This document shows, one piece after another, positions 10,301-54,310 of a DNA stretch of 64,000 nt. Below the pieces are notes generated by a model. The model had not been told where the DNA came from. It saw nothing but the letters and a program-made list of their open reading frames with translations, and did not search any database. The position numbers and the translations under genes were made by a program. Numbering within the stretch: the stretch's first letter is position 1; every line of letters begins with the position of its first letter. Origin of the DNA: Diphasiastrum complanatum (lineage: Eukaryota > Streptophyta > Lycopodiopsida > Lycopodiales > Lycopodiaceae); NCBI GenBank assembly GCA_029204225.1, contig CM055103.1:57339705-57403704 (forward strand), in the 5' to 3' direction.

Positions 10301-11434
10301 CAACCAACCTAATCAAGCACCCAGAGGTAGAACGATTCCTCATCTGTTTATCTTTGATTCTGAGTACACTTTCAGATTCCAAAGGTACATTGAGCGATAA
10401 GTCCTCCAAATGGATAAAATCTTAATATATCTAGTTGTCATCATCATATAAACTAAATTTAAGCAGTCGACCAATCATGAAGATAAAGTTCAAAAACTAG
10501 CAAATCAACCTTTTAACTTTCACATTTACCCTGAAAATCAATCCTTAGTTTGACTTCAATATCAAATAAGTACTTAGATATGGAATAATTCTCAAATTAT
10601 CTATCTCTACACTAAAGTACTATATCGACCTTTAGAAGTACACTAAGATATAAATTTTCCTATTGGGTCTGATTCTCTCCAATCTAGTAACATCATTTTT
10701 ATGTAACCTCAATTTACATGACTCCCTGGGTGAAAAGCCACCTTCATTGGAAATCAATATTTAAAAGTTAAAGATCCAAACAATTATAGTCCAAGCCTAT
10801 CCACAATTTCTTGCAGACCTGTCATAAATGCTTCTTGGTACAAATACACTTAGAATTTTATCAGAACTAAGGTACAAAAATTCATCCTACCAAAATCTCT
10901 TAGGAGATCCAACAAGATAAAAATGACTTTAACTCAATCCTAAGTGCCTTTGATACTCACTTGAGTTAAGTGCTCTATTTCTAGCAACACATGCAAGGAA
11001 ATAGCAACCATTCAATCTTGATAGATTTAACTGCTCCTAATTAACCAAAGATTTTAGGCTGAAAATAGTACTCAAGCATTCCTTGACTACAATTTATAGT
11101 AGAATTTTATCCACGAAATTAAGCAAATTCCTCATGAGTAAACAAATTACTGAATGAAAATGCTTGTGAGATTTACACAATCTCAAGTATGTGCAAGAGT
11201 AAACAAATTTAGATTGACTGATCTAGATTCTTAACTCTCTCAATTGATCAAGAAATACGCATCTCTTAAGAATCATCATATTTTTATATAATCTTCTAAT
11301 GATGTTTAAGTATCAATTTATGATCGATGCATCAATCATAAACATTTAGAATCTTATAATTCGTCAATCATAATTATAGGATTCCAAAACCATACTTCAT
11401 CATTAAAAAAACTATTGGAGTATATGCACAACAT
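10301..11434. other. AT-rich stretch without identified genes
   Basis: About 1.1 kb of low-GC sequence, probably eroded gypsy downstream sequence. No domain, tandem repeat or structured RNA was recognised in any frame. Confidence 0.5.
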
Positions 11435-12089
<655 letters not shown>

Positions 12090-16129: not shown

Positions 16130-16440
16130 GAGAATGGGAAAAAGAGGAGGTGAGAGGGAGGGAGTAGAAAAGAGTGGAGAGAGGAGTGAAAAAGAGAAAG
16201 GCAGCTATGCGGTGAGCAACATTGGTGCTCCCCGACAACGGTGCCACTGCCGTCGATTGTAGTATATGGGTCCATTCACTGGGAGCCGCCCGTGCGCACC
16301 TGCATAGCAACAGAGAGAGAAGGGAGGTAGAGAGAGGAGATAGAGAGAGTGATGAGAGAGAGAGTGTAGAGAGAGGAGAGAGGAGAGAGATAGAGATCTA
16401 GAGAGAGGAGAGAAGAGAGAGAGTAAGGAGAGATTAGAGA
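16130..16440. repeat. GA-rich tract next to the right terminal repeat
   Basis: Irregular GAGAGA-rich purine sequence runs up to the terminal repeat at 16440, interrupted at 16205-16305 by a more complex segment. A PBS would be expected here if the repeat were a 5' LTR, and none is visible. Confidence 0.75.
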
Positions 16441-16516
16441 GAGAAGAGAGTTCCCCAAAGATGGTTGGGGCTATGGGGGCTCGAGCGCCTAACCATAGCT
16501 ATGCACCAATCACCCT

Positions 16517-16605
<89 letters not shown>

Positions 16606-17075
16606 AAGAAGAGAGCTTTATTAAGAAGAATAGAAGATATGTACAATGGAAAATGGCCTCCTTATATAGTTGAGGAGGGAGGGCCATCTTGGCTCTCATT
16701 GGCCTATTTACAATGGCATCCTAGCCCTTCAAACTAAATGAACTTCAATCTAATGATTCATTAGAAAAAGGGCTAAACTCACATGATTCATGTGAGTTTG
16801 AGAGATTTCCTTTTAACTTAGAACTTTATGAACTTGACTTTGGGCTTTTTAATTAATTTATTCTACTAAGGCCCAAAGTCCTTTTATTCAAGTTCTATTT
16901 ATCCGATTTGCGTGGTCACTGGGTCGGTCTTATACATGCAGAAAGCCGGTGCCCTCGTACTATTCTTCTAACTGTACAATGTATTGTGGTGGGGCCCACT
17001 AGTTAAGGCTTGGCCAATAGTATTTTAAGTGGTGGAACCCACTTTTTTATTATTGTACAAGAAATACCCACAACA
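16440..17075 (-). repeat. Terminal direct repeat of TR-gag, right copy
   Basis: Matches 11435-12089 with scattered substitutions and a shorter GA tract (about 16519-16602). TATA-like and AATAAA motifs on the minus strand are conserved in both copies, as is the inverted repeat around GGCCCAAAGTC (one mismatch here). Confidence 0.85.
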
Positions 17076-19640
17076 TCTTCACACTGCTTATTTATCCAAT
17101 TAACTTCTAAACAAGAGTAATCCAATTACTCAAGTCAATTGTAAATGATTCGGAAATCTTAGTTGTCTAGGTATGGAATTCATATATTCTGGACACATTT
17201 AGTTCCTCATCCAAACCATCGATAAGTTAATGAATTATCCTTTCAACAAAAAGATCCATTAACCTGCAAGTAACTGTTTCACACAGTACTTGTCATATGT
17301 CTATGCACTCTGACTAGTTTAAGTATATGATATATACTCAGTACATAGGAAACACATAGCAGATCCACAAGATTAAGATGCACATAAACAACATATCCAA
17401 CCACGTTCCTATACATAGACATAGGCTATAAACTGGCATATATCCATAATCTGCATATGTTACTCACATAACCCACTAAGAATCTTGCAACTCAGCTACA
17501 ACCAAACTCTATTTCTCATGAGTAAATAACATATATGGGAAATCTTTGAAGTGAATAATTCCACATCACAAGTTTTCCAACCATCTAACTCTTATTAACA
17601 AAATTTCTTCAACCAATCAGCCTACATCAGGTCTTAGTATACAAACCAAGATTAGGCTAACTTATACAGACATCTTTGGACAAAAAGTTAAGATTAAAGC
17701 TTTATTCCTCTGATCCAATCCATAATAAAATGGTACTTGGGAACAACTAGTAAACCTTAATTTATTATTTACCACTACTTCTCATATTCATGAGTATCTC
17801 ACAACTCAATATTCCCAAAACTCCTCCAGTTCTAGAGTATTCAAAATAATCACTTAGAGAGTTCCTCTATTTCAACTAGATAGTTCTACCTTTGCACACA
17901 TACTAGAATTTTTTTCAAAAATCTATGCAACTGGCTAATTCATTGAAAGTGTTATTCCTATCTTTTCTTCTCCCCGGTTTTATAAGAAATTCCATAATTT
18001 CAATTAAAAAGTTCTCAAGAGACAACGTATAAGATATCAAAGATTTGAAAAAGTTAGTAATTAGTATTTAATACTATTACACACCGGACTTTTTCCTCAA
18101 AAGCATAGAATATCTTATCTCGAGTGATAGAAATATCACATCTCAATAATCAACTATCAATTAGAGATACACATTTGGGTTTAGGAAGTCTAAACTACAC
18201 TGAATCAATTGAAAACATCAATAGATTCTGAGCCATACTCACAAATCATATATGGAAGTATAATTTCATATAACTTTATTAGTGCTTCAAAACCAAGTTC
18301 TACATTGGAAGGGATTATATGAATCTCAATCCAATTGTCTCTTATTTAAGAAATTTCTAAAAAGTAGATGTTTAACATAATAGAGAAATAGATTTAAGGG
18401 CTTCCAAATTTTGTAAATAATGAGGTACCATTTTGGGATCAATCTATATCTCATAATTTCCCAAAATTACCAGAACAAAAAACCAATGGATTTCACTGTT
18501 AGTATGGCCATTACAAAAATTACTAACCATCAATCTACAAATCATTCTCACCCAAGAAATCCCCTTTCGAATCACTGATGTCCCTTACCACCAGCTTTTC
18601 CTCCAAGAATTCTCTACATCTAGATTTGTTTTGCCCAAAAAGTTAAAAAGACTAAGGCTGACTAATTTCAACTCAGTAAGTTCTGAAAGGATTCTGAAAC
18701 ATCCGACACGCATCAGACATGACATATAGTGATTTCTAAGAAAATTAGGTTTTTTACTCAAATTGCCTAAAAACTGAAAAATCAGCTTTTTGAACTAAAA
18801 TTGTTAAAAATAGCTTCATGCGTGAAATTTTCTCTGATCAATCTACTGAACACCCATGTACCATGCATCCAAACATGCATACAAGTTTATCTATACATTT
18901 TCATCAACAAAAAAACACTGCACTGAGTTACATGCATGCATGCATCAAAACATTACCAAAAATTTGCAAATTTTCCACTAGTGTATATTCTCTCCCAAGA
19001 GGAGGAAATATTCCTCTTAGGATCCCCATGCAACCTGGAATAGCAATTGACCTCCTATTCTTGCATTATAGCAGTCATACACCATGCAAGTGCTCCTATG
19101 TCCCATTATAAATCTAGGACCTCACATGATTATTATTACTTTACTGGGCTAAGCCTAGAATGACGAGGCATAACTAATAACCACATACACTAGAGTGACC
19201 GGCTATCGTCAGGAATTATTCCAAATTCCTCATACTAGACATGGACGTAACAACATGACTACTCACCTAGAATAGATCCACAAAACCCCTTCTTTGCCCT
19301 CTAGATTCGACCACTTAGGGAGGCACAGAAAGGTTCCAACAAATAGTGAGAGCATCGATGCATATTCAAATAGCTCTACTAATGAGGTTAGATGTCAATA
19401 TCATACAACAAGCCAAATGCAAGGCTATGCTTCATGATGATGCTTCAACTTCTGCTGCTAATAGCAACAAGATAATTACCTTTGCCATAGAAAAGTTCCA
19501 TATATAGAGTAATGAAAATTTAAGAAAGTTCACCACCGATCTCACAACTACAATATATCAAAAACTAAAAAGGTTACAGCTTGGTCAAACCCAATAACCA
19601 CCCGCATACCCTAGATGAGAATATATATGGTACTCTCATT
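17076..19640. other. AT-rich stretch without identified genes
   Basis: About 2.5 kb with no recognisable domain. An ATGCATGCATGCAT run occurs near 18932. The 97-residue open frame at 18818-19111 is Met/His rich and resembles nothing I know. Retrotransposon decay is likely but not shown. Confidence 0.5.
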
Positions 19641-21479: not shown

Positions 21480-22219
21480 CAATCTACTTCAGATTAAGAT
21501 CAATTCTAGACACAAAATCCTAACAAGAACAATCATTAATTGAAGGTAAGTGTACTTTATGGTTTCACACGTGTGAAACACTGTCTGAGTACGGACTCCA
21601 ACCTGAAAATCAAGTACACATTGATAGAACCTCAAAACAATCAAAACAAATGTAGATAAATGGAGAGAATCACTCAAAATTGCTTCCAAAACCAAGATTG
21701 GTGTCTCACATTGATTGTGGCCAAATGTGGCTCTATATATACAATAAGTGGGAGCTCGTGGTACTGATCATCCCTCTGATCCCACATGTGTGAAGGTGCT
21801 TTGTCATATGATGATTCATCATGCAAAATTGACACTTGGACAAAACCTTCTATTTTGAGCACTTTTGGTCCATTTTCCTTCTATATGGAGATCTACTTGG
21901 AAATCTTCTAGAAGTCAAAATTCGCCTACTTTAGCTTATTCCACACATGTGAGTTGTCCTCTACACATGTGATATGACACCTAACCAAAGGATGTGGCTC
22001 ATGCATCAATAGATTGATGCCATGTGTCATATGTCTAAAAAACTAGTTTTTGGCCTTTTTAGCCACTAGAACTTGAATTAAATCATATGTACAACCTATA
22101 TGATTATGGTACATGACAAGTACACTATTTTCACACGTGGGAACATGCTCCACACATGTGTGTTTATCTATATACAAGACTTTTGGCCTCTACCAAGCTT
22201 ATTTTTGCATTTTTCACAG
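21480..22219 (-). repeat. Decayed copia LTR
   Basis: On the minus strand it starts TGTGAAAAATGC at 22219, like the LTR at 60340 (TGTGAAAAATAATC), and shares CACATGTGTGGAGCATGTTCCCAC-type sequence with it (22128-22160 versus 60399-60425). Several CACACGTG/CACATGTG palindromes occur, as in the Copia-7 LTR. The inner end is estimated from the family LTR length (~737 bp). No adjacent PBS or coding region is visible, so it is a solo or truncated LTR. Confidence 0.55.
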
Positions 22220-24183
22220 AATGTACAATGGCCCTGGCTAATTATTACTCAAAAAATACGATTGCAATTAGACAATTTGCTCAAGACACATCTGACCTTA
22301 TGGGAAGAATTGAAATCATATATTAACATAACGAACAAAGATATTTAAAGTAATTCACTCAGATCATGAAGTAGGTGTAAGGTGGGAGAAAAACAAAAAA
22401 CACAAAAACAAGTAATGCTAACCATCACACATCAAGGTCTCCCACAACCATCAACAATATCATGTCTTCCAAGTTAGTTCAAGTAGAGATTGGTGCACAT
22501 GGTGGAATCTCTTTTTCACGATTAGACTAGTTGATCAATATGATGTAAACCCTACAGGCTTGGCAAAAGAGGTGCATACCAAGGTAGCCAGTATACGATT
22601 TATACTTGACATTATTCTCTTAGACTTACCTAGTTGTCCCCAATATTCCAAAATGCTACTAGAAAGACTTGCTTCACGTATCACAAGCCCTTCATAATAG
22701 GGGACATAATGGGATGATTTTTCAAAACAAGGATTCAATTGTGAAGATTGACCAACAGACCAATGATGCATGGTTGCAAGTTCAACAACCACCACCCATT
22801 CTGATGAAAAATCAAATGACGGACATCACTATAAGAGAATTGTCATTTGCAATAATTCACAAACCGATGTGGTAAATTGGATTGAGGCTTTGGCATGGTG
22901 GATTATTGACAATTTGACATACAAGATCAAGGCCCACCAATGATGAATTCTCTAATGATGTCAACGAAGCCACATATGAAGTAGAGATTTTTCTTCGGGA
23001 TAAATTTGTTAGGTTCACCAAGGATTCGACCGACGCACACCGACAAGATTCATTGTAGCCAATTGCTAATGCTAAACTTGTTGACCCGAATTTCAAGCCA
23101 CAAGGTTGCCCAAAAGAAAAATCTATGAAAAATTAAGTGAACATCGAAACAGATGCAATTTAACAAGATAAGTTCTACTTAAGACAGGTCATCTTTCTCT
23201 TCAAAGTTGTTCCCTTCACACATCCCATTGTTCCATATGGACATTTCCTCTTACCAAGGAAACTTCTACGGACATATCCATTGTAATAATTTTGGGTGGG
23301 TATTGAAATTTTCATGATCGGTCAAGTCCCCTATGCCACCTTCAAATTTCCATATCGCATATTATACAAGCTAGCATATATCAAATTCCCAAATCCAGAT
23401 ATACAAAAATTGTTTGAATCCCTACTTTTTTTCAAAGATAATAATCATTTATTTAAAGACATGATCTTTTTTACATGCAACATGCACATGATTTGAAAAG
23501 CTAATACTTTGGTGGTACCCACCAATGTATTTGGGTCACCATGAATAGAATGTCCTAGTAAACATTTTTTAGATTTTTAGTACCAATCAGGTATCGACAT
23601 AAGCACGTTCATTTTTTTCTCAAAATCAAATAAGCATGTTCATCAGTGGTCATGGATGTCAAGTGGACTTTTTATTTTTTCTCTTGAGGATGTCAAGTGG
23701 ACTTGTATTGCTAGGGTGATATTAGCTGATTATCAGCCCGTGTTAATATAATAAAATTGTTTGAAGTCACTTTTTGAAGGATAATACTACATTTATTGAA
23801 AGGCAAGACCTTTTTAAATGCAATATGCACATGATTTAAAATGCCAATACATCAGTGATCCCACCAGCGTACTTGGAGTACCAAGAATGATATGCATTAC
23901 ATACTTGAATTTTGGGTACCAATAAAAAAATCAATAATAAAATTGATACTGTAGCAACATCCATATTTTTCCCAATCCAAGTATCAATATGAGTATTGTG
24001 GGCCAAACCCAGCCCTAGTTGGGTATTGATCCTAGTATCATAGAATCACATGCTAGGTTAAATCAATTTCTTGATACTTGAGTTGATACAGTCATCATGC
24101 ACCTATGTACCTGCCCAACAATGCATTGTACCTCTCTTTGATCTCAACTATAAAAAAATAGGGCCATCTTTTCAAGCATTGAA
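22220..24183. other. AT-rich intergenic DNA with a ~140-bp direct repeat
   Basis: No coding domain recognised. Diverged direct repeats at about 23411-23552 and 23758-23893 share ATGCACATGATTT and surrounding text. A 17-bp GGATGTCAAGTGGACTT repeat occurs at 23654 and 23685. Confidence 0.5.
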
Positions 24184-24420
24184 GAAAGTAATGTATTTTT
24201 GCATACTTGTTCTAAATGCAAGTTTGCGGAAATCCTTGAAGATGGCCAAGTCTTCAATGACTTCAAGTTATTAAACTTAACATATGAACTTTGAAATTAT
24301 GACATGATTGGTTACCCTTTGCTGGAGATAAGCCGGAAGCCCGTTGCAGACGTTCTTCAAATAAATTGGCTGTCTGAGTTTGTGATTCCAAGGAGACAGC
24401 TGTGGGCTTAATTTCCAACA
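24184..24420 (-). repeat. Displaced first 237 bp of the Copia-3 LTR, inverted
   Basis: The reverse complement starts TGTTGGAAATTAAGCCCACA at 24420 and matches 33630-33866 with three mismatches by eye. The match stops at 24184 exactly where the Copia-3 5' LTR remainder begins at 29164 (four bases, TTTC, are shared). This is the signature of an inversion of the segment between 24184 and 29167. Confidence 0.9.
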
Positions 24421-25287
24421 GTTTTACGCTTAAAATGATAAGTCACTTCATCTACATGGCTGGCCCATGTTAAAAAATGATCCTTCTCCCCCTTTCAGTC
24501 TACAATTTTACGTGAAGTTGCCTCAAATTGGAGGTAGAACAAAGGGGGAAAGAAATTGACATTCTTGTAGTTCTATTGAGTGTTGCAATGTTCTCAATTT
24601 TTCTTAAGAACCATTGGATTCAAATTTTTGAAAATGATAAAATTTGAGACTTGAGGTTTAGATCACAAGCAATAATTTGAGACCTGAGGTTTAGATCACA
24701 AGCAATAATTGAGCATTATTCATACCTTCTACTTATCAAAAAGTTAGGTATTTGGTCATAATAGGTGGGTACCTACAGAGAAAGCAGATATTACTTGGGG
24801 ATTCTTTCAAACTTGATGATTGTTTATAGTGCGAGGATATGTACTTTTAATATTATGGTTTTTATATCGATAGATGTCTATCTATTGATGCCTTGTTGAC
24901 GGGCTATTTTATATCCTTTTGACCCGATACTCACACAATACTAGCTTTCTCCACCCATTGAGTGGGAGATATTTTTTTAAAAATTTGAGAATAACTTTTT
25001 GGGAGTCTTTTTTGAGGTAGAACAAGGCTAAAGAAATTGACATTCTTGTAGTTTTATTGAGTTTTGCAAGGTTATCAGCTTTTATTAAGAACCATTGGAT
25101 CCAAGTTTTTGAAAATGATAAAATTTGAAAAGTGGAGGTTTAGATCACAAGCAGTAATTGAGCATTGTTCATAGTTCATACCTTCTACTCATCGTAAAAT
25201 CAGTTTTTCCTTCTTTACAAAGGAAAGGGAAGACCTCCCTGTGCGAAATTTGTGTGCCTCTTCCCTTTTTTTTCATAATTTTTTACG

Positions 25288-25321
25288 TGCACCTTCCGAC
25301 ATTTGGATGTCGGAAGGTGCA
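25288..25321. repeat. Perfect hairpin, 15-bp arms and 4-nt loop
   Basis: TGCACCTTCCGACAT, loop TTGG, then ATGTCGGAAGGTGCA. The inverted repeat is perfect. Its position inside the insertion, not at its ends, argues against simple terminal repeats. Confidence 0.9.
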
Positions 25322-25518
25322 TGTATAAAGAATTCTTATTTTTTGGCTCATTTTCCAACCAAAAGGTGCATGTCAAATAAAATTTATGCCAAAAGAAAAA
25401 GGAAAAAAAAAAAGTTTTCACATTGAGGAAGGTCACCTCCTCGTTTGCTTCGCCTTCTACCTTAGGCTACTGCTCTCTGCCAATGGCCCTTCCCCAACAG
25501 AATGGCCTCAGAGGGTGA

Positions 25519-25539
25519 CCCCCCCCCCCCCCCCCCCCC
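25519..25539. repeat. Poly-C run of 21 bases
   Basis: A homopolymer C tract in otherwise AT-rich sequence. It may vary in length or contain sequencing error. Confidence 0.9.
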
Positions 25540-26079
25540 AACCAGAAAAAAGAAAAACATTAGGTATTTGGTCATAAGTGGTGGGTACCTACAAAGAGAC
25601 TAAATCGTTCATCCTTGGGGATTCTTTCATGAGTAGCGTGAGGATATGTGAATTTTAATATGTTGGTTGTGTATTGATAGATGTAGATCTATCGATACCC
25701 TATTGACGGGCTTTTTTATATCTTTTTAAACGAATACTCACTCGACACTGATCTCCTTCTCCACCCACCGAGTGGGAGATATTTTTTTCCAAATTTGAGA
25801 GAACAACTTTTTCATATCTTTTTGAACGAATACTCACACAACGTTGATCTTCTTATCCACCCACGAAGTGGGAGATATTTTTTTTCGAAATTTGAGAGAA
25901 CGACTTTTTTGGTGTTAGTTTTTTTCAAAATTTGAGAGAATAACCCATCTCAACACGCAAAGTCCTCCACCCATCCCATTCCCCCAGCTTTTGAAAAAAA
26001 AAAACAAAAAATACCAAAAACAAAAACAAAAAGGTGAATGGAAGCTTCGGTAGCGCCCCGTCAGGCGGAGTGGGGAATC

Positions 26080-26389
26080 CTTTAAGGACGTCAGAATATT
26101 CGTGGAATATTCCGTCGGTTCTCCCCAAGCAAGGCTTGCTGCTGCTGCTGCTGCTGCTGTTAAGAGAAAAAGGAGAAAAGAGAAGAAAGAGGAGAGGAGA
26201 CAGCAGAAGAGCAGCGAGAAAGAAGAAGGAATAGCGAGGAAGAGGAGGAGGAGAGGATAGACAGAAGGAGGGGGTAGATCGGAAGGTATAGCAGCTTCTG
26301 AAGCCCTCTAGGACGCTGCTGTTGCTGTATCTGCTTCTGCTTCTTCTGCTGCTGCTTCTGGTTTTTGTTCTGCTGCATTCTGCTGTTGA
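26080..26389 (+). promoter_or_regulatory. Probable SMT2 promoter-proximal region and 5' UTR
   Basis: GC and purine content rises sharply from about 26040. Two palindromes, GAATATTC and GGAATATTCC, lie at 26095-26114, followed by a (GCT)8 run at 26138-26159, a GA-rich stretch (26160-26275) and more CTG/CTT repeats up to the start codon. Pyrimidine/purine repeats of this kind are common in plant 5' UTRs. The GAAnnTTC units resemble heat-shock elements but are one base out of standard register. No TATA box was identified with confidence. Confidence 0.4.
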
Positions 26390-27517
26390 ATGGATGCAAT
26401 GGAGGCTGTGGCTGCGTCAAGCGGATGGATCATGTCCTGGGGGCTCTTGGGAACAGCAGCAGCGGGTGGGATCGCGGCCGCGGTGTACTGGGCGATGTGC
26501 ATTGCGGGGTCAGCAGAGCGCAGGGGCAAGCGAGCAGTGGAGCTGGGCGGGGGATCGCTGTCACGGGAAGAAGTAGCAGGCAATTACAAAGAATATGCAG
26601 CATTCTTTGAAAAGCCGAAGCAGATCGAGAAGCTGGACAATGTGCCCAAGCTGGTGGATACATTCTACAATCTGGTGACAGACATCTATGAATGGGGTTG
26701 GGGGCAGAGCTTCCATTTCTCGCCTGCTGTGCCCGGGAAGTCGCACCGGGATCAAACGCGACTGCATGAGGAGAGAGTAGCAGATCTGCTGAAATTAAAG
26801 CCAGGGCAGAAGGTGCTGGATGCAGGGTGTGGAGTGGGGGGGCCGATGCGGGCGATCACCGCTCATTCTGGTGCTAATGTGGTAGGCATCACCATCAATG
26901 ACTACCAGGTGGCAAGGGCTCGGAATCACAACAAGAAGGCGCGGCTGGATCATTTGTGCGAGGTAATATGCGGAAATTTTCTGCAGATGCCTTTTGCTGA
27001 CAATTTTTTTGATGGTGCTTATTCGATAGAAGCGACATGCCATGCGCCGCAGCTGCGAGAGGTATATGCTGAGATTTACCGCGTGTTGAAGCCAGGGCAG
27101 CTTTATGTCACCTATGAATGGGTTACCACTCCCAAATATTCTGCAGATAATCCTGAGCATGTTGAGATCATCCATGGGATCGAGCACGGTGATGCGCTTC
27201 CCGGTATGCGAAGCTTCACCCAGATTGTAGAGATTGCAAAAGAAGTTGGTTTTGATGTTTTGGAAAACAGAGATCTGGCTCTTCCTCCGGCGCATCCATG
27301 GTGGAAGCGGCTGAAGATGGGACGCCTTGCATATTACCGAAACCATGTGGTGATTGCTCTGCTTTCCTTTCTGGGCATTGCTCCACAGGGCGTGGTGGAG
27401 GTGCATGAGATGCTGTTCAAGACGGCACTGTATCTGACTCGCGGAGGAGAGACTGGTATCTTCACTCCAATGCACCTTCTGGTTTGCCGCAAGCCAGCAG
27501 TTTCTCAGCGAGAATAG
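26390..27517 (+). CDS. SMT2: Sterol C-24 methyltransferase 2 (24-methylenelophenol C-methyltransferase)
   Basis: The 375-residue intronless protein transfers a second methyl from S-adenosylmethionine to 24-methylenelophenol, giving the 24-ethyl sterols (sitosterol, stigmasterol) at the ER. A hydrophobic N-terminal anchor spans about 13-40. YEWGWGQSFHFSP (100-112) is the sterol-binding region I; W at this place (YEYGWG in SMT1) marks the SMT2 class. LDAGCGVGGPMR (143-154) is the SAM motif; YSIEATCHAP (211-220) and YEWVTT (242-247) are further SMT signatures, and the sterol-MT C-terminal domain with RGGETGIFTPMH ends the protein. An in-frame TGA directly precedes the ATG, so translation cannot begin upstream; Met4 is an alternative start. 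Length is close to the ~360 residues of Arabidopsis SMT2, which also lacks introns. All key motifs are intact. The gene is GC-rich against AT-rich surroundings. Confidence 0.97.
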   Translation: MDAMEAVAASSGWIMSWGLLGTAAAGGIAAAVYWAMCIAGSAERRGKRAVELGGGSLSREEVAGNYKEYAAFFEKPKQIEKLDNVPKLVDTFYNLVTDIYEWGWGQSFHFSPAVPGKSHRDQTRLHEERVADLLKLKPGQKVLDAGCGVGGPMRAITAHSGANVVGITINDYQVARARNHNKKARLDHLCEVICGNFLQMPFADNFFDGAYSIEATCHAPQLREVYAEIYRVLKPGQLYVTYEWVTTPKYSADNPEHVEIIHGIEHGDALPGMRSFTQIVEIAKEVGFDVLENRDLALPPAHPWWKRLKMGRLAYYRNHVVIALLSFLGIAPQGVVEVHEMLFKTALYLTRGGETGIFTPMHLLVCRKPAVSQRE

Positions 27518-29163
27518 ATCCACTAATATATCTCTGTAAGGCTTGTTCGATCCTGAGCGAGGGAGGCATGATCTTCATACCAGTCTTATCCTTCATTTTC
27601 AGCGTATGATACTTGTGTTGACAACTCTGCTTGATCATGATCAAATAAAGCCTTCCCTTGCAGATGTATAGACAAGGGTTTGCATTGAAATTGCTGTTAG
27701 GGCAACTGAGAAGGAGGAGCCCTTTGCTTGCTTTCTTGCATCAACAATTGCAGGATCATCATTTGTGCTTTTATGCATGGGCAAATTTAATTTTGTAGTT
27801 TCTTGTATTTTGCAACTAGTAGAATCATTCCCTTGGATAGATTCCTTCCCTTTTTTAGTGTAATGGTTGTACTTCATATTAAGATTTTGGTGCAGAACAG
27901 CATGTCCGACCACTTTATGTCAGGATCGTGTTTTTGTTACCCATGATGGGAATAATGCCAAAGAACAAAACACATCTTACTTCATTTTTTTTTCTTTTGA
28001 CAAGTTCTTATTTTTAATGGCATGTAAATTCTCATACTGTGCATTCCTCTGATATCAGAGCTCAAGTGGAGCTTCCATCAACTTCTTGAGCTGAATTAGA
28101 TGCTCGAGGGACACCGTTATTGCTAATAACTCAATGTAAGAATTGACACGGTTTGCTTGTTAATTTATTTATGATCTAAAGTTAGTTTCTTTCGATGACT
28201 TTTAGATCTGATTATCACATTTGGTTTGGACACTTTTGAAAATTAATTTGCTCATGAGTAGAAGTAAAGAATAGTTCAGGATCAATGAAATGCTGATTTG
28301 AAATCTGGTTATCACCGGCGTCAGAGCCACCTATTCTTTAAGGATTTTGAAGCTCATCTAAGCACCAATTGTAAGGTGAGTACAGTCTGTTGGTGCAATG
28401 AATGGGAAGATGCTAACAGATTGGTCCTCTTTGTCATGACATTGGTTTCTGTACAAAAGGGTGGAGGATACTACTTGCTATGATTCTTTGGATTTCTAAC
28501 AACCATTCGATTAGAATTGAAAAAAGTTACATTGTGAGCAGAATGTCTTAGTTTTTTTCTTGTGGAAGGCATAGTCTTTGTGAATACGACTGGTGATTCA
28601 AGGTAGTCGTATAGTGTCCTTACTGCAATATTTTTTTTGTACAGTTGAATATACTCTTTACAGCATTTGGGCCCATTTCAGATTAGTTTGGGTAGTCAAT
28701 GAGTCAAAATTCACTTAGCTACCTTTCACTTCTTTCCATGTGGCAAGTGGTCACTTCAATCTTGCCTTTTCCCAATACGTTCACTTCACCCCTCATGTGG
28801 ATACCGTGTGCGTGGCCCATTATAGGTAGCCTTGCCCGGCAGTGAGAACATCATTTGCCAGTCAAATTGGCTTCTTTTTCACTCTTTGATGCTTCCCTGT
28901 GGCAGATTCCCTTTTACAAATGTGTGGCCAACATGGAAATACCTTAATGTAGAAAAAAGGCAAGGCACATGGATTCTTGCCTATCAATTTGTAAAGTGAT
29001 GCTCATACTTGTCTGCTAAAAGGCTATCAAAGTCTGCAGTGAATATATAGCTATGGTGGGAAGTTTTCTCTAGGAGGCAATGGATCGTCTCGATATGAAC
29101 AATGTGGATGATGGAGGCAATGGTGAAGCTTGAAAGAAGCCCCATTCCCTATTTGAGGAAGAG
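27518..29163 (+). other. SMT2 3' flank and intergenic DNA
   Basis: An AATAAA at about 27644 could serve as the SMT2 poly(A) signal. Beyond it no coding domain was recognised up to the broken LTR at 29164. Short open frames (27867, 28298, 29102) show nothing familiar. Confidence 0.5.
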
Positions 29164-30250
29164 TTTCGTGACAATCTGCAGAAATGAACTATGTTCGAGA
29201 CAGCTTCGCGAAAGTTTCGCGACAGTCCAAAAGTTCAACTATTTTAAAACACCCTCGACTTTTCTCGCGAAATGTTTGCGATAGTTCAAAAGTTCAAATA
29301 TTTTTTAACACCTTCGACTTTGTTCGCGAAAAGTTCGCAAAGAGAGAGAAAATTTCCGAAGGTCATCTATTTTTATGTTAAATTGTTTTAAAGACACCTT
29401 CGCCTTTTTAAGGGCACCCTCGCCTTTTTTGCAAAATCGCGAAGAGAGAGAAAAATACCAAAGGTCATCTACTTTGAACGAGGAACGTTCCCAGCCACTT
29501 CCCAAATTTGCGAAGTGAGAGAAATCCACTTCCCTTATAAAGCGAAGTGAGAGAATTTACAACGCCCTCGTCCACGTCAACATTCCCTATGGGTTGACAG
29601 TATACACTATGTACAGTTGTCACACAAGCCATATACTTCTAAGTACGGTGACAATCATTTATTGTAGTTAATACACGGATGAAATCTATAAATAGATTAT
29701 GAGACGCATTATTTGAGCCTCCCAATTATGCCGTCAATTTTTGGTTGTAATTGCTATTTGTATTGTGCTTCAATGTAATACAGCAACAGCACGCTTTTAT
29801 CTGTGTACAACGTAGATGAATGCTTGTTGTGATTGAATGCACTTTCATTGTTGTTTGGTCGCGCTTGTTTACTCACTCTGATCAGAACACAAACGTCTAC
29901 AACTCCTCAGTTTTTTATCAGACGATGGTTGTCTTTGATGCCTGAGGAACTTGCGATATCATACTGCTCTTCCATTCATTTCAAAACTATACTTCACGTT
30001 GAATCTAATTTCAGTAGTACCACATACAAACCATCTCCAATCTCTTCGGTGGACTGTACTCTTGTTTTAGAGTATGAATTAAGTTTTAAGATCCTGTTGG
30101 GCAATCAGAACGCATAAAGTTGTAATCATCTTTAGCATAAGCTGTCTATTAGACTGTTTTTGCACCTAGCATTCGATTAGAACGGGAGAGCTGTTCTGCA
30201 GTATTCCTGCTCTTTTCTCCGTTCTCATTCTTCCTATCTCCCTTGCCCCA
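29164..30250 (+). repeat. 5' LTR of Copia-3, missing its first 237 bp
   Basis: Positions 29164-29345 align with 33863-34034. It contains many TTCGCGAA-like palindromes, a TATAAATA box at 29687-29694 and ends CCTTGCCCCA shortly before the PBS. Confidence 0.8.
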
Positions 30251-30256
30251 TAAAAT

Positions 30257-30268
30257 TGGTATCAGAGC
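30257..30268 (+). other. Primer-binding site of Copia-3
   Basis: Perfect TGGTATCAGAGC, six bases after the apparent LTR end. Confidence 0.9.
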
Positions 30269-30317: not shown

Positions 30318-31140
30318 ATCATGTCTCATATAGGTAGCTCTTCATCTTCATCACTCAGTGAAGCTAGAATCATTGACAAATTCAATGGTTCTAACTTCTA
30401 CATCTGGAAGTTAAAACTTAGAATGATGTTGATAGATAGAGATCTTTGGGATGTAGTAGAAGGTGAAGACCTGAAACCAGAAGATGGTGATCAATTAGAG
30501 GATCAAAGATCAGAAGACCTTAGCATGTATCACATTCAATCTGGCCGACTCCCAAATATCTCACGTTACCACGTGCAAAACCTCTAAGGACGCACTGGAC
30601 TTGTTATCAAGTCTCTATGAGACTCACGATGTAACCACAAGATTACATCTTAGAAGGAAGTTCTTTACTCTTAGCATGTCTGATTCTACTACCATCACTT
30701 CTCACATCAACAGCTTCAGTTCTCTGTTAGATCAGTTATCAGTTGTAGGATGTTCTATTCAAGATGATGATGTCGTCATGACCTTGCTTTCTTCTCTTTC
30801 AAATTCCTATGAGCACTTTGTGGTGATGATCTCCACACAACCAAACCTCACCCTTCAAAAGGTGATTGGTCATCTTCTTCAAGAAGAAATGCGGAGAAAG
30901 ACTAGCAGCCTGTCCATCAAAGACAAATCCATGGCTGTATACACCAAGAAGAAAGATCATTCCAAGGGCAAGAATTAGGTGCAGCAGTAACATGATAAGC
31001 CTCACACTCAAGGTGAGCATGGTGGACCGCGCAAGAAGCTTTTCTGCAGATATTGCAAGAGAGACAATCACGACATCAAGGAGTGTCATATATGGATCTA
31101 CAATGAGGCAAAGAAACAACAACAATAGCAGCAGCCATAC
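30318..31140 (+). pseudogene. gag: Copia-3 Gag with zinc knuckle
   Basis: The frame MSHIGSSSSSSLSEARIIDK continues with FNGSNFYIWKLKLRMMLIDR and DLWDVVEGED, the typical copia Gag N-terminus. A frame break near 30530 is followed by LDLLSSLYETHDVTTRLHLR, ITSHINSFSSLLDQLSVVG and LLSSLSNSYEHFV (30601-30978), then, after a stop, FCRYCKRDNHDIKEC (C-X2-C-X4-H-X4-C) at about 31040-31090. The polyprotein is interrupted at least twice. Confidence 0.8.
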
Positions 31141-31179
31141 TCCTCCAACGCGGCCAAATTCAAGGAGAAAGACACACAC

Positions 31180-32087
31180 TTGTTAATGGCTTACAACAGT
31201 AGCGAAGATTGTGATAGCTGGTACCTGGACAACGGTGCCACCCAACACATGACCTCTCGCAAGGAATGGTTTACGGAGTACACATCTTACAGCAGAGACC
31301 AATATCTACCTCAGAGATTCTAGCACCATATGCGTGGAAGGCAAAGGAGCAGTGAAGATCAACTTCAACAATGATCTGTCCATTTGTGTTCCTAACGTCC
31401 TTCATGTTCCTCAGTTGTCAAAGAACCTATTATCAGTCTCTAAGATAACTGATGAGGCTACATTGTTACTTTCTCATCTGAACAGTGTACAATACTCGAG
31501 GAAGATACTACTCTGACTACATGCACTAGAGTCGAAAATCTTTACGTACTCTCTAATTCAGTTGCATTAGCTAGCATCTCTAATGAGAATATAAACGACA
31601 GTGTTGTTCTGTGGTATAGTCGATTTGGACACGTGAATACAAAATCACTTTCTTATATGCATTGTAATAATTTAGTTGATGGACTAAATTTCCCTTCTTC
31701 ATTAGATAGAAAATCTTTCTTTTGTGAATCATGCATCTATGGGAAGCACTCTAGAAGCAAGTTTCCAAAATCATATTCCATCAAAACAAAGCATGTATTG
31801 GATCTTGTACATAGCGATCTATGTGGGCCAATGCCAACTCTGTCATTAGGAGATGCAATCTATTTTATCACTTTCATAGATGATTATTCTAGATGGTCAC
31901 GAACTCGGACAGTTCCTGAGAAAGTTTCTATGCCAAACTGTTCCATGACACTAGGCTTGTGCCCATGCCAAAACAGATCCTCACGAACTCGGACAGTTCC
32001 TGAGAGGTATGCACCTCAATCATTCTGGACTTCATCAGAAGAACCAAAGAGCCTAGCCGAAGCAATTAACTCCAAGGATGCTGTGAA
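31180..32087 (+). pseudogene. pol: Copia-3 protease and truncated integrase
   Basis: Protease motif WYLDNGATQHMT (about 31217-31252) reads D-N-G where D-S/T-G is expected. It is followed by IPNVLHVPQLSKNLLSVSKI-like sequence, then WYSRFGHVNTKSL and CESCIYGKHSRSKFP (zinc-binding pre-integrase) and DLVHSDLCGPMP with ITFIDDYSRW. Immediately after this the integrase core ends: a 25-bp direct repeat (31897-31921 and 31981-32005) brackets an 84-bp period of unfamiliar sequence, and the second and third catalytic residues are gone. Confidence 0.78.
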
Positions 32088-33620
32088 GTGAAAGCCATGG
32101 AAAGCGAGTACAATTCACTTTTGATGAATCAGACCTGGACACTTGACTTCCCTACTCACAAGAGAGTTATTGACAACAAGTGGATCTTCAAGAAGAAGAT
32201 CAACTCTGATGGTTCCATTGCCAAATGGAAAGCATGGCTGGTGGCTAAAGGATTCACTCAAGTCCAAGGAGTGGATTATCAAGAAATTTTCAATCTTGTC
32301 ATCAAGATGCAGTCAATCAGAACTCTGATTGCGTTAGCAGCCGCGGAAGACCTCGAAATGCACCAAATGGATGTCAAGACAACATTCCTCAATGGCAATG
32401 TCAAAGAGGAGTTGTATACCTTCCAACCGGAAGGATTCGAAGTCAAAGGCCAAGAGCACAAAGTGTGCAAACTGCACAAAGCAATCTATGGTCTGAAACA
32501 GGCCACAAGAGCATGGTTCGATAGAATCAACTCTTATCTCATTCAATTGGGATTTGCAAATAATTTAGCTAACTGTAATATTTATTCAAAGCATATGGGC
32601 ACCAATTCAGTTCACATAGCTCTTTACGTAGATGATGCATTTATTCTGTCTAACGACACTTCTCTACTGTACACTACTAAGAGTGATCTGTCAAAGGAAT
32701 TTGACATGACTGATTTAGGAGTTGTTCATTCTTTGCTAGGAATTCACATTACTAGAAATAGACTTCACAAGAAGATCTATCTTAGCCAGCAGGCATATCT
32801 AAAAGGCATTTTAAAAAAATTTCATATGTTTGATTGCAAACCAATTGATACTCCAATGGATCCAAGTATAGTATTGACTAAATCTTCTTCTGCTGAGATT
32901 GATAGTGAAGTACTCGACTTAGCGAAGTACCCTTATCATTCACTAATCGGATTTCTGATGTATGCAATGATGTGTACTAGACCAGATTTAGCATACACTG
33001 TCAGCACGTTAAGTCAATTCATGTCTAATCCTAGGATCTCTCATTGGAAGGCATTAAAGAGAGTGATGAGATATATCCAGGGAAGTTTAGATCACATTTT
33101 ATGTTATAATGGAAATGTTATCGACCCACTCATCTTACAAGGCTAGTCTGACTCAGACTGGGGAGGAACAGTCTCTACCATAAAATCTACCTCCGGGTTC
33201 TGTTTCTATCTGGCAGGGGACCGATTTCGTGGAACTCAAGGAAGCAGAAATCAGTCACGCTTTCTTTGACAGAGGTAGAGTACATTGCAACATGTCAAGC
33301 TTCAAAAGAAGCTGTATGGATCAGGTTATTACTTCACGACTTGCATCACACTCAGTTCAATGCTACCACCATTCTGTGTGACAATTTGAGCTATAATTCT
33401 CTGTCACTGAATCCCAAATTTCATGGCAAATCCAAGCACATAGAAATGCAGTATCACTTCATTCGAGAGAAAGTTTTCTCAAGGCAAGTGATCCTTCAAT
33501 AGTGCTCCACAACCAAAATGGTCGCAAACATCTTCACCAAAGTGCTTTCCAGGATCAAGCACCAAAAGTTCTTCAACATGCTAAACCTGATGAAGATACC
33601 AAGTCACCAACCGCGACCTT
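32088..33620 (+). pseudogene. pol: Copia-3 reverse transcriptase and RNase H
   Basis: A 352-residue open frame covers the RT from NQTWTLDFPTHKRVIDNKWI through MHQMDVKTTFLNGNVKEELY, YGLKQATRAWFDR, ALYVDDAFILSND (intact YVDD) and MTDLGVVHSLLGIHI to HWKALKRVMRYIQGSLDH. A TAG at 33144-33146 precedes SDSDWGGTVSTIKSTSGF (RNase H). After another shift, SLTEVEYIATCQASKEAVW and KSKHIEMQYHFIREKVF follow. The RT domain itself is intact in one frame; the RNase H is broken. Confidence 0.85.
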
Positions 33621-33629
33621 AAGGGAGAT

Positions 33630-34034
33630 TGTTGGAAATTAAGCCCACAGCTGTCTCCTTGGAATCACAAACTCAGACAGCCAATTTATTTGAAGAACGT
33701 CTGCAACGGGCTTCCGGCTTATCTCCAGCAAAGGGTAACCAATCATGTCATAATTTCAAAGTTCATATGTTAAGTTTAATAACTTGAAGTCATTGAAGAC
33801 TTGGCCATCTTCAAGGACTTCCGCAAACTTGCATTTAGAACAAGTCTGCAGAAATACATTACTTTCGAGACAATCTACAGAAATGAACTATGTTCAAGAC
33901 AACTTCGCGAAATGTTCGCGATAGTCCAAAAGTTCAACTATTTTAAAACACCCTCGACTTTTCTCGCGAAATGTTTACGACAATTCAAAAGTTCAAATAT
34001 TTTTTAACACCTTCGACTTTGTTCGCGAAAAGTT
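33630..34034 (+). repeat. 3' LTR of Copia-3, 3'-truncated
   Basis: Starts TGTTGGAAATTAAG after a purine tract (AAGGGAGAT). The first 237 bp match 24184-24420 (reverse complement), and from 33863 they match 29164-29345. The alignment ends at AAAAGTTC (34034), where the non-LTR RT relic begins. Confidence 0.88.
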
Positions 34035-34039
34035 CATCC

Positions 34040-34990
34040 ATAAAACATCCATAAGAGAGTTGTCAAATGAAGAGAGGAGATGCAAAAAGTCCGGAGCAGG
34101 GGGAAAAGTCCACAGCAGATATGAAGGACGCTGGATAAAGCAAGATGTCAAGATGCCAAACGCAACTTGAGTGTCGCCCAACCGAGGAAACAGATCTGAA
34201 TGAGCAACATCCTCCTGGAGAGCCTCACCAAGAAAGCAGAGTTGAAGGAAGCAGACCCAAAAGGAACACCCAAAATACGAATGCCATCCGAAGGAGCAAG
34301 GAAACCTTGAGGAGGAACAAAGTCTGGGGGAAGACCTGTTGGAGACCACACTGAACACTTGCGAGTTTGAATAGTGTTGAAACTGAAAACAGATAGAGCG
34401 ACTAACAAGACGGAGGAGGACTTCGCCAACAGCGATGGGACGGACGCCACTCGAGGCTTTAGACATGGCGATCAAATGAGACGTAGACAAAAGACGTGCG
34501 ACAGAAGAAGAAATGTGACCAGAGGCGATAAAAGAGCAGACCTGAAAGAGTTGAACAAAGCCACTAGCAGAGTCCTCGGGTGGAAAGCAATCACGAAGGT
34601 GTTCATAGACCAAACCGGAGGGACCACCAACAGCAAGACGAGGACTACGATGGAAGGCACAAGAGAAAGAATCACGATCAAGCACCAAGTCAACATCAAA
34701 CACAAAGTCCTCCACAAACAAGGGAAGAATGCCTTCAGAAGTAGGATGCAGAGCTTGGAGAGCAGCAACAGTATCAACAGAAGAGGGAGCGGGTGTGAGA
34801 GGAGCTAAAGCTCGAGCTGCATGAGAATACTCACCAACTTGCCCAAGATGTAGGGTGCGACGAAGGCGACGGTAGAGAGGTGGGGTGCCTTGAGGTTGAG
34901 AGTCCTGTGAGTTGCGAGTAGCTGGATGATGACACAAAGTTTGATTTCAATTGTTGAAGATGAGTTGAGGATGATGGTTGCAAAGTAAAT
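34040..34990 (-). pseudogene. Non-LTR (LINE-like) reverse transcriptase remnant, palm deleted
   Basis: The minus strand encodes LRRTLHLGQVGEYSHAARAL, then ALQALHP, GPSGLVYEHLRD, SFIASGHISSSVARLLS and SGVRPIAVGEVLLRLVSRS. The RPIAVGE motif and spacing mark the fingers of a non-LTR RT class common in lower eukaryotes and plants. In another frame follow KCSVWSPTGLPPDF and DGIRILGVPFGSASF, a thumb-side motif, and then GDTQVAFGILTSCFIQRPSY. The catalytic palm with its YxDD box between these blocks is missing, so about 150-200 residues are deleted. The low-coordinate end abuts the truncated Copia-3 LTR. Confidence 0.7.
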
Positions 34991-43646: not shown

Positions 43647-44368
43647 TGTGAAAAATTGCCTATATTGGCAAATCTAACTATGTCAAATAATGTAAATATG
43701 TACATTAGTGGGTCTCACATGTGTGAGGCCATGGAGCCATATGGGAAACCTATATTGGAGTAGATTAGATCATGTCTAAAATGTGGGTCAAGAAAATATG
43801 GTAGTGATTCCTACTTTATAGGAGCTAATTCCTATATTTATGGAGTAGGTTGATCAATCTAGCCACCAATATGGCAAGAATCTAGGAATGAAGCTAGAAT
43901 GGAAAATTAGGGCAAGAAAGCTCAATCAACTTCCTTATTACATGCTGGATTTTTGCCTAACTCGAGGTGGGGAAGAGGCTTTCTATGTATCCAATCCTCC
44001 ATAGTAATGCCTTTAGATTATTTTTGAGAGCTCATGGGCAAAACTCGGGTTCTACACTATGTACTTTGATTGTTTTTGGATCTCTAAGTAAGAAAAAAGT
44101 GTTTTTCACTTTATTTTCAGTCTACAGGCCGTATTGAGTACTGTTTCACACTTGTGTGGGTTGTATTTGCTTTTGATTGATATATGCTAAATTGCTAATC
44201 TAGATCTCAAATTCTTGTGTCTAGTTTGTATTTGTTTTATGATCAATCAATCAACCACTCTTGTGAGGCATTAATGCACTCTAAGGTCCAAAGTACTGTA
44301 CATTGACACTTCTTAGATTGAGAGAAGCTAGAAACTATACTTCTGATTCATTATTTTTACTTGTCATT
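43647..44368 (+). repeat. 3' LTR of Copia-5
   Basis: Starts TGTGAAAAATTGCC directly after GAGGAG and carries CACATGTGTG palindromes, as other LTRs of this family do. The end is placed at CTTGTCA (44368), giving 722 bp, close to the 726-737 bp of related LTRs. The end is less certain because no second copy exists in the window. Confidence 0.65.
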
Positions 44369-48809: not shown

Positions 48810-49546
48810 TGTTGAATTTCACACGTGTGGACTGTCCACTACATGTACTTGTGATCTCCTAAGGTGTGTAGATGCACCAAGATCAAGACTAGATTGAGAT
48901 TCAAGATCAATCTTGAATCCTATGGCAAAAACACACTACTACATGCATTAAATCACTTCCAACTCTCACTCACACGTGTGGGAAGTATTCAAAAAATAAT
49001 CTAAGTAAAAACAAGCTGCTCTCCTCGGGTAGAGAGACAAAATGCATCAAGAGCTCTCGAGTAGAGAGAGAAAGCTAGAAATCCAAAAACTCACAAAATC
49101 CATGAAATCACCAAATCAATTGATTTCAAAATGAGGAGTACAATGATAGTAGTAGGTCCACGAGCTACCACTATGCTTAACTATGATTGGACCACATTTT
49201 GTCACCTCTTGATCCTATTGGATCATTGATCTATGCACCTCTTAATTCTATTGGACTATATTCAAGCACACCTCAATTTCCTATTGGACCTCACAAGGTT
49301 CCACCTCTATATCCTATTGGACCTCTTGGAATTCATCAAACAAAAACTTTACACTTGTCTACACTCTAATTAGCAAGTGTTTAGCCTCTTACTCTATTTT
49401 GGCTCAATAGTGGCATTACAAGTGGAAATGCATAATTTGCCATCTATGCCAAATTTATTCCTATCAACATACTACACCTAGATGCTTGATGTAAAAAACA
49501 TAAGACCCCTATATCTAACATAGATAATCTTTTTCAATTCTTCACA
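48810..49546 (-). repeat. 3' LTR of Copia-7
   Basis: Near-identical to 54311-55047. It contains CACACGTG palindromes and a CCTATTGGACCTC-type repeat near 49220-49330. Confidence 0.96.
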
Positions 49547-49560
49547 CTCCTCCTCAAAAA
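49547..49560 (-). other. Polypurine tract of Copia-7
   Basis: On the minus strand TTTTTGAGGAGGAG directly precedes the LTR start TGTGAAGAATTG. Confidence 0.85.
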
Positions 49561-49564
49561 TTAT

Positions 49565-52500
49565 CTATGAAGATTTGAGCATTGATCTTGATATAACTCC
49601 AAGATTAGATCTATGCTTGATGAAAGCACTTTTGCTCAAAGGCTTGGTGAGTAGATCGGCAATACAAGAGGACGAGTTGACATGCTCCAAATAGATTTCT
49701 CCTCCAATAAGCTTTTCTCTCACAAAATGGTGTGCCACTTCTACGTGCTTGCTTCTTACATGAAATATGAGATTATTGGCAAGATCTTGGGCCGAGATGT
49801 TATCACATTTGATCATTGGTAGATCATCCTCCTTGATGCACTTTAGTTCCATTAATAACCTCTTGATCCAAAGCACTTCTTTGGTAGTTGTAGTGAGTGC
49901 TTTGTACTCGGCCTCACATGACGAGAGAGATATAGTATCTTGCTTTTTGGAAAGCCAAGATATTAGATTGCCTCCAAGAAAGATAGTGTATGCACTAATA
50001 GACTTTCGATCCATCTTGTCACTTGCAAAGTCCGAATCCGAGTAGCCAATAATGGATAGATCTTCACTTTTATAGAGTAGACCATAATCACAAGATGAAG
50101 ATACATATCTTAGAATCCTCTTGGCCATCTTCCAATGATGGATCTTAGGTTCTTGCATAAATTGACTCAATTTGTGCACACAAAAACTAAGATCGGGCCT
50201 AGTAATGGTAAGCCAAATCAAGGAGCCTACAAGACTCCTAAAAAGTGTGATGTCCTCAAAGGATCTTTCATCACCTTTATTAGGATCTTTTACAATTTGC
50301 TCCATTGGAGTATCTATGCTCTTAGAATTTTCCATATGGAATTTTTTCAACATAGAGTGAGCATATCTAGATTGGCATATAAAGACATGATTTTCATAAA
50401 AATCAATTTCTAGGCCTAGGATGTAATGTATCTCTCCTAGATCTTGCATTTTAAACTCACATCCAAGTGCTAGCTTGGTTTCATCAACTAGCTTGATACA
50501 ACTTCCACAAAGAATAATGTCATCAACATAAATTAGAAGAATGACAATATTGCTATCAACAAACTTTAGATACATGGAAGGATCATAGTCACTAAGAGTA
50601 AATCCTAGTGAGATAAGGAAAGAGTTAAGTCTTGAATACCATGATCTTGGTGCTTGCTTGAGTCCATAAAGACTTTTGAAGAGCAAGCACACTTTGGACT
50701 CATCCTTGATGAATCCTTGAGGTTGTTCCATATAGATCTCCTCCTCAAGATAACCATTTAGAAAAGCATTGGATACATCTAATTGGAACACCTTCCACTT
50801 GAAAAAACAAGCAAGAGAAATAAGAATTCTTATTGTCACCATCTTTGCAACGGGTGCAAAGGTCTCCTCATAATCAATACCATGGATTTGAGCAAATCCT
50901 TTGGCACATAATCTTGCTTTATGCTTGTTGATGGTGCCATCATGATTGAACTTGATCCGAAATACCCACTTGCAACCAATCACATGCTTGTTGGAAGGAG
51001 GATCCACAAGCTCCCAAGTATTGTTGGTGATCAATGCATCATACTCTTGCTTCATGGCATCATACCACTCCTTGGTATTGAGTGCCTCTTGTACATTCTT
51101 TGGCTCTTCGTGAGAGACATAAAAAACATAATTAGTGGAATCAAGATCCACTTGTTTGCCTTTGTCAACATATGAGAGCCTCTTAGGCTCGGATCTATCT
51201 CTCATGGATCTTCTTGGTGAAAAATTCCGAGGAGAGTCTTCTTCAAATCTCGACCCCATCACATCATGATTGTCTTCAAAATCAATAATTGATGATGCAT
51301 TCATAGATTTCTTGATCTCGGCCTCTTCAAATGATGAGTGTTGATCTTCATGAAAGAAAACATCTCTACTTTCAATAACTTGAGAAGTAGAGAGTATAAA
51401 GACTCTATAGGCCTTCTTGGTGGATGAGTATCCAACCATGATCCCTTTGCATGCACTAGGATCTTCCTTCTTCCTTGTTTCCAAGGGAATATGGACAAAG
51501 CATAAGCATCCAAAAACTCTAAGGTGATCAACCTTAGGCTTCTTCAAAAATAAGATTTCATATGGTGACTTTCCTCCAAGAGCTATATGTGGGAGCCTAT
51601 TGCAAAGATAATTTGCACAATTAATGGCTTCTCCCCAAAAATCTTTGGGCAAAGATGCCTCAATTCTCATAGATTTTGCACATTCACATAGAGATCTATT
51701 CTTTCTCTCGGCCACTCCATTTTGAGATGGAGAGTAGGCACAAGAAAACTCTCTTTTAATGCCTTCAAGCTCACAAAAGTCTTGAAATTTATTGGAGATA
51801 TATTCACCACCTCCATCACTTCTAAGAGCTTTAATCTTGAATGATAATTGCTTCTCTACATAAGCTTTGAAAATAAGGAAATGATCAAACACCATAGATT
51901 TTGAAGCAAGAAGATATATCCAAGTGAATCTTGTGTAATCATCAATGAAAGTAACAAAACAAGTGGCTCCTCCCTTGCTTGTAGTTGATGAGAAATGCAC
52001 ATCCGAGTGGACTAACTCCAAAGGATGCTTGCTTTTGATAGAAGATCTTGTAAATGGCTTTTTGTGAGATTTAGCAATAGCACAAGCCTCACAAGGCTTG
52101 ATCTTCTTGGAGAATGACTTTGGCAAGCCAATAGCTTTGGATTCTTTGATCATAGAGAGCATGGATTTGTAGTTGGGATGTCCCAACCTCCTATGCCATA
52201 ATTCCTCCATAGAGAGCTTGTTCACAAGAGCAACATTACAAGCATTCACATACTCATTTGGATCTAGTTTATAGATTCCACCAAATCTACATCCTAATGC
52301 AAGTATCTCATCATTCTTCTTGATAGTGCAAGTATCAACATTGAATTTTACATCAAGGCCATTATCAAGCAATTGGCCAACACTAATAAGATTCTTGGCA
52401 AGCATAGGTACATAAAGAGCTCTAGAGAGAGAAAGAACTTTAGAGGATGCAAGCTTCAAGGGAATGTTCCCTATGCCTTCAATAGGACATTCAAAATCAT

Positions 52501-53554: not shown

Positions 53555-53608
53555 TTGAAGTGAAGAAAACTCAAATGATGAACAATAAATGTTGTTACAC
53601 ACTTTCAA

Positions 53609-54298
53609 TAGGATCCAATAATTGAGTACTATCTCCTCCTATGAAAGATCTTACAACAATTTGTGAATTGATTCTCACTAGCTACACAAATCTCTCTAAA
53701 ACAATATCTATTTCACATCAAATGATGGAGTATAGGCAAAGTTAGGATCCAACACTCTTAGCACGTGTGAAATACACTAAGAAACCAAATTTGACTCAAA
53801 TACAATGATATTGCATGAAACAAAATGGCTAAGATCTCAAAACAGTGCCTAGATCACATATAGATGAGATTGGCAAGCATACAACTGTGATTTTGGATCA
53901 ACCAAGCAATCTCTTGACCAAACCAAATGTGTCCACCCAGGTCTAGGTGCCCTACCTAACCCTCTTCAAAAGCTTATAACTTTTGATTGGCTCAACCAAA
54001 TGGAATGAAACTGATTGCAACAGAAACTAGACAAAAATAGCCTCAAAACAAGCTATCAAGCAAGTTAAATGGATCAAACATGAGAGAGAACTTCCAAACT
54101 GAAATTGGATGTTCCTCACACGTGTCTGAGCACCTGATTCCGTACAGTACCAGGTCATACCCAATCAATGTCCTTTTGATCTCTTTTGATCCAAGATTGA
54201 ACAAGATAGCTAGGAAAATGGGCCTTGACAACTTCTAGCTCAAGATTGATGAAAATTTTTCACTTAGATGGATCAAAATGCATGGTAACCTTAGGTAG
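53609..54298 (-). other. Leader of Copia-7
   Basis: About 690 bp between PBS and gag without a coding frame, comparable in length and position to the Copia-1 leader. Confidence 0.65.
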
Positions 54299-54310
54299 GC
54301 TCTGATACCA
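54299..54310 (-). other. Primer-binding site of Copia-7
   Basis: Minus-strand TGGTATCAGAGC (plus strand GCTCTGATACCA) directly adjoins the 5' LTR at 54311. Confidence 0.93.

Follow-up and report, generated by a model that had tools for sequence, protein, structure and literature searches.

Small inversions with transposable elements (TEs) at their ends are well known and common in plants. An index of inversions in rice gives TE similarity at both breakpoints for 888 of 1,769 inversions and in at least one for 389 more, with TEs at one or both breakpoints in 1,277 of the 1,769 and an enrichment of Copia, Gypsy, and MULE elements (PMC10030860). According to a review, inversions can arise by ectopic recombination as well as by end joining (PMC7093584). 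The inversion reported here resembles the small TE-associated inversions of rice (PMC10030860) and Brassica napus (PMC12599057) in having LTR-Copia sequence at a breakpoint, but differs in that both arrangements are found in one assembly, at base resolution, and in that a split LTR gives the direction of change. With inversions formed by breakage and non-homologous end joining, as described in that review, it shares microhomology of 1–4 bp, a small net deletion, and the lack of a repeat at both breaks; there is no difference in kind, and the locus alone is new. With ectopic recombination between inverted repeats or TE copies, also named there (PMC7093584), it shares a TE at one breakpoint, but here the TE contains just one of the breaks, and a search for an inverted repeat common to the two breaks found none. 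A literature search by topic (SMT2, inversions, haplotypes), judged from bibliographic entries, returned no paper on this locus. The present case adds one more clean instance to a familiar class, and it is unusually clean in that the ancestral and derived forms occur in one assembly, both joints can be given to the base, and exactly one gene, complete, lies inside.

The window analyzed, a stretch of 64,000 nucleotides from Diphasiastrum complanatum, belongs to a contig of ~59 Mb (C12). A piece of ~5 kb carrying an SMT2-like gene is flipped in this window, as can be seen from a second contig of the same assembly, C1659 (60,059 bp). Positions 1–21549 of C1659 align in reverse to window 50771–29164 (with a 60-bp gap), 21546–26532 align forward to window 24184–29170 (4,987 bp, 2 mismatches), and 26535–50724 align in reverse to window 24187–1. 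This is the order that had been predicted for an inversion beforehand: right flank in reverse, window 24184–29163 forward, left flank in reverse. The inverted segment (24184–29170; 4,987 bp), which includes the first 237 bp of an LTR and the whole SMT2 frame, is thus forward on C1659 while its flanks are reverse, so that two orientations of one segment occur between the same flanks, as in a polymorphic inversion. The original prediction, made from the sequence alone, had proposed a comparison with related genomes or other haplotypes; C1659 provides a second copy, with the uninverted order and the opposite orientation of SMT2, and we infer that this copy is an allele and not a second locus. Our preferred reading, to which we give a probability of roughly 0.86, is that a 5-kb inversion of recent origin is present in its derived state in the window, with the uninverted form on C1659 as most likely the second allele.

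The two contigs are very similar throughout the 50.7 kb that the match spans. There are 25 single-nucleotide differences over 50,748 aligned bases (0.049%), 14 of them transitions and 2 within the 4,987-bp inverted segment; gaps amount to 43 bases in the left block, 42 of these in AG/TC runs, and a single base in the right block. A second small structural difference is a stretch of 60 bp (window 43686–43745, edges ambiguous by a few bases) without a counterpart on C1659.

The direction of change is recorded in a Copia LTR. The start of the element's 3′ LTR (33630–33866) recurs inverted at window 24420–24184, in a gapless alignment of 237 bp that has 3 mismatches, exactly as had been claimed; at E = 1.6e-116, chance does not account for it. 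This piece (24184–24420, minus strand), the first 237 bp of the 5′ LTR, is 100% identical to C1659 21546–21782. The rest of the 5′ LTR, from about base 241 and with its start missing, lies at 29171–30250 (plus strand); window 29164–29336 matches 33863–34035 over 173 bp with 10 mismatches, and on C1659 this remainder continues the 237-bp piece. C1659 21377–21782 matches 34035–33630, both parts of the 5′ LTR forming one alignment of 406 bp with 12 mismatches. A search of the same genome with the LTR start likewise shows two same-strand copies 4.7 kb apart on C1659. The 5′ LTR is therefore unbroken there, with SMT2 opposite relative to its surroundings, which bears out the earlier claim that the flip followed the Copia insertion. 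A joint alignment to other copies of the LTR had also been suggested, and the joined LTR of C1659 is indeed continuous across base 237 with copies from other loci (L005, L006, and L008).

A search for LTR copies gave 3,003 first-look candidates, 40 of which were scored; 4 lie in the window or C1659, and 36 elsewhere. All 36 of these scored copies cross base 237, the shortest reaching base 273, and 34 of them reach base 400, so the situation named beforehand as contradicting an inversion, a 237-bp piece ending at the same base at another locus, was not seen among them. Since the LTR is continuous on C1659 and runs past base 237 in 36/36 other scored copies, the arrangement on C1659 is ancestral and that of the window derived.

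These copies also bear on whether the piece at 24184 could be an independent LTR fragment that ends at base 237 by chance, with no inversion involved. In favour of this, the LTR family is large (3,003 first-look candidates, of which 40 were scored), and divergence from the 3′ LTR is unequal between the two parts (3/237 vs. 9/169; Fisher p = 0.033). The fragment is, however, 100% identical to the C1659 piece and at most 95% identical to the other-locus copies scored, and on C1659 piece and remainder are joined in one LTR, which refutes an independent fragment unless C1659 is itself an artefact; we regard this explanation as almost certainly wrong. The unequal divergence had been entered as a caveat to the inversion (~1% in the first part, ~6% in the second). 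The counts hold up, but we have set the argument aside: both parts are continuous over 406 bp on C1659, so their difference does not count against an inversion.

The element itself shows the features of Ty1/copia, namely a copia-type gag and RVT_2, LTRs of the form TG…CA, and a primer-binding site after the 5′ LTR. Its internal region (30499–33499, plus strand) is degenerate, with gag, gag-pre-integrase, and RVT_2 pieces in separate open frames; the Pfam search gave Retrotran_gag_2 (E = 2.7e-35) and RVT_2 (E = 7.3e-73) above the cut-off and gag_pre-integrs (E = 4e-4) below it, and no family match for 33152–33499. The LTR measures ~1,320 bp, its 5′ copy ending at 30250 as judged from TTGCCCCA ahead of the motif at 30257, which we take to be the primer-binding site. 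The 3′ LTR of the same element (33630–34035, plus strand) is present in both arrangements, and in both only its first 406 bp align, the alignment being lost after base 406. Past that end (base 406 of ~1,320; window 34036–34046) the sequence continues with ATCCATAAAAC. As TAAAAC also flanks the original end of the 5′ LTR, an internal deletion may have shortened the 3′ LTR and spared its last bases. The alignment also stops at base 406–410 in 8 of the 36 other copies, two of the eight being near-identical partners. Copia elements usually have target sites of 5 bp. The original 5′ flank of the element, now at 24421–24426, reads TAAAAC, and the same six bases recur at 34041–34046, five bases beyond the point where the 3′ LTR stops aligning; this match is only suggestive of a target-site duplication, since it is 6 and not 5 bp long and the 3′ LTR is incomplete. 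The two LTRs differ at 12 of 406 bp (3.0%) and the two contigs at 0.049%. If rates were similar and the flanks underwent no later exchange, the Copia insertion would have ~60 times the age of the split between the two copies, and this split would set the upper limit for the age of the inversion.

Each inversion junction can be placed to the base. At the left junction (24184–24187), the flank can be followed on C1659 as far as 26535 (= 24187), and the LTR side begins to match at 21546 (= 24184), leaving a 4-bp microhomology, GAAA, common to both ancestral ends; a single GAAA is kept at the joint, and either end could have supplied it. The right junction lies at 29170/29171 (within 29164–29171), with a 1-bp overlap, the G at 29170, inside a 6-of-7 match (TTTCGTG/TTTCGAG). 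Over bases 29164–29170 the window agrees with the far side of the break; at 29169 it shares the T of the far sequence and not the A of the LTR. The corresponding unbroken sequences on C1659 are CTCGAAAGTAATG (LTR break) and GAGTTTCGTGTTTTTCTTCAATG (far break). Fixed flanking bases enclose 4,996 bp on C1659 and 4,987 in the window, a net loss of 9 bp. With 120-bp queries, each of the two junctions was recovered intact at one place only, the window itself (40 places scored for each, of 313 and of 1,228 candidates), and on C1659 their halves lie 5 kb apart, those of the right junction at 26472–26532 and 21484–21549. The non-LTR halves of the junctions were found at none of the 40 scored places per junction beyond the window and C1659.

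The original prediction needs amending at its edges. It had placed both breakpoints inside one LTR, but just one ancestral break lies there (in the 5′ LTR, at about bases 234–240), and the other falls in DNA outside the LTR, 1.65 kb downstream of the SMT2 stop. Its right breakpoint, 29164/29167 with microhomology, was correct as to microhomology (GAAA and G) and a few bases too far left. Likewise, a single inversion between 24184 and 29167 agrees with the order on C1659, but a net 9 bp were also lost.

No repeat was found at both breaks when 2 kb on either side of each break were compared. Seven matches with E no higher than 1 resulted from this comparison; the best inverted one has 24 bp at 92% (E = 0.004) and lies ~1.8 kb from both breaks, and the flanks outside the breaks alone gave at best 22 bp at 82% (E = 0.49). 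Recombination between inverted repeats (NAHR) does not fit, as no inverted repeats at both breakpoints were found within 2 kb of the breaks and one break only is in a TE. The short microhomologies (GAAA, 4 bp; G, 1 bp), the net loss of 9 bp, and the lack of a long homology or of a repeat found at both breaks instead indicate end joining (NHEJ or MMEJ). A replication-based switch gives similar joints, and we infer that the joints were made either by microhomology-type end joining or by a replication template switch. In the uninverted, ancestral form the Copia element starts ~2 kb upstream of the SMT2 start codon and points away. Two breaks would then have occurred, one in the 5′ LTR around bases 234–240 and one outside the LTR, ~1.65 kb beyond the SMT2 stop codon, and the segment between them would have been rejoined the other way round at the 4-bp GAAA and at 1 bp within the 6-of-7 match, with the loss of 9 bp. 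By this event the body of the element would have shifted from upstream of SMT2 to 1.65 kb downstream of its stop codon, and its 5′ LTR would have lost its first 237 bp, which would stay behind as the sole LTR remnant upstream of SMT2.

The joints also speak to the question whether the flip on C12 was made in contig building, scaffolding, or gap filling, the real chromosome being arranged as on C1659. It is true that one arrangement is carried by a 60-kb contig and the other by a 59-Mb contig. A plain flip of an assembled piece would, however, not create microhomology and a 9-bp net loss at the joints, the window contains no Ns, and no repeat was found at both breaks, so that mis-resolution of a repeat graph is unlikely; a structural difference would, moreover, presumably make an assembler retain a separate contig. 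We therefore consider such an artefact quite unlikely.

A further explanation is that C1659 derives from a recent segmental duplication elsewhere in the genome, one copy of which was inverted. Near-identity alone is no proof of allelism, since near-identical stretches do occur inside one chromosome: two places on C21, at 28410710 and 28615540, are 99.84% alike over 1,835 bp. A divergence of 0.05% is also low for two alleles of an outcrosser, which counts against reading C1659 as an allele. The comparison of C1659 with C12 covered positions 1–60000 except ~50725–55728, which face 5,000 C12 bases outside the compared DNA; beyond the left end of the window, C1659 55729–60000 matches C12 again (4,302 bp, 98.95%, 1 mismatch, 44 gap bases). 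Apart from that interval C1659 thus aligns to C12 at 98.95% or more, and sequence from another place is seen at neither end of C1659 1–60000. Near-identical partners, such as would be expected of redundant allelic contigs, exist for other short contigs too, although the pairs were picked for their like hits: C746/C14, C1495/C5, C56/C21, and C4757/C1643 are 99.83–100% identical over 1,177–1,836 bp. These partners suggest that the assembly keeps redundant allelic contigs. A segmental duplicate appears very unlikely, and an allelic inversion remains the preferred reading.

The places on C21 mentioned above (C21:28410710–28412544 and C21:28615540–28617374; L042 and L041) lie 205 kb apart, and C56 matches both (100% and 99.84%). 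A recent duplication may explain them, as may two copies of a young element or allelic sequence that was retained in the chromosome.

The gene inside the segment is an SMT2-like sterol C24-methyltransferase with one uninterrupted frame of 375 amino acids (26390–27517, plus strand), wholly inside 24184–29170 and not cut by the inversion, so that its intactness was rightly predicted. The frame has the two domains expected for SMT2, a methyltransferase domain (Methyltransf_11, E = 8.4e-22) and Sterol_MT_C (E = 6.5e-22), both above the Pfam cut-off; the name SMT2 rather than SMT1 is our assumption, following the original prediction. SMT2 was found at three places, on C12, on C1659, and as an 84% paralogue on C17. 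The two base differences between the inverted segment and C1659 fall at 26373, 17 bp before the ATG, and at 26858, where the inverted copy encodes Thr157 and C1659 encodes Ala157. Residue 157 presumably lies a few residues after the methyltransferase motif VLDAGCGVGGP. The C17 paralogue also has Ala, so that Thr157 is probably derived on the inverted copy. That the inversion is a functional regulatory variant with Thr157 as a linked derived change, the alleles differing in sterol-methyltransferase expression or activity, would be conceivable from the sequence but is unlikely. The locus allows the effect of a small inversion on the gene inside it to be tested simply, by allele-specific expression. 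It should also be taken as a warning for annotation, as the Copia 5′ LTR that appears broken on this chromosome is intact on the other contig.

Synteny with C17 had been considered as a guide to the ancestral orientation. Window 10981–11435 and 17077–18382 adjoin the SMT2 paralogue on C17 and resemble a conserved block; besides these two pieces, window 9001–29200 matches C17 only at 26431–27774 and 27913–27989. We dropped this guide, as 17077–18382 proved to be a high-copy repeat: among 4,028 first-look candidates, the 40 that were scored have a lowest identity of 83%. Between the two pieces, which are near neighbours on C17, lie direct repeats (11435–12089 and 16440–17075) that are ~93–95% alike and flank 5.6 kb, an arrangement that suggests the insertion of an LTR element into a high-copy repeat of greater age. 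In the right part of the window, two direct copies of ~700 bp (48849–49549 and 54350–55047), both 98.4–98.6% identical to one place on C17, probably stem from a young element.
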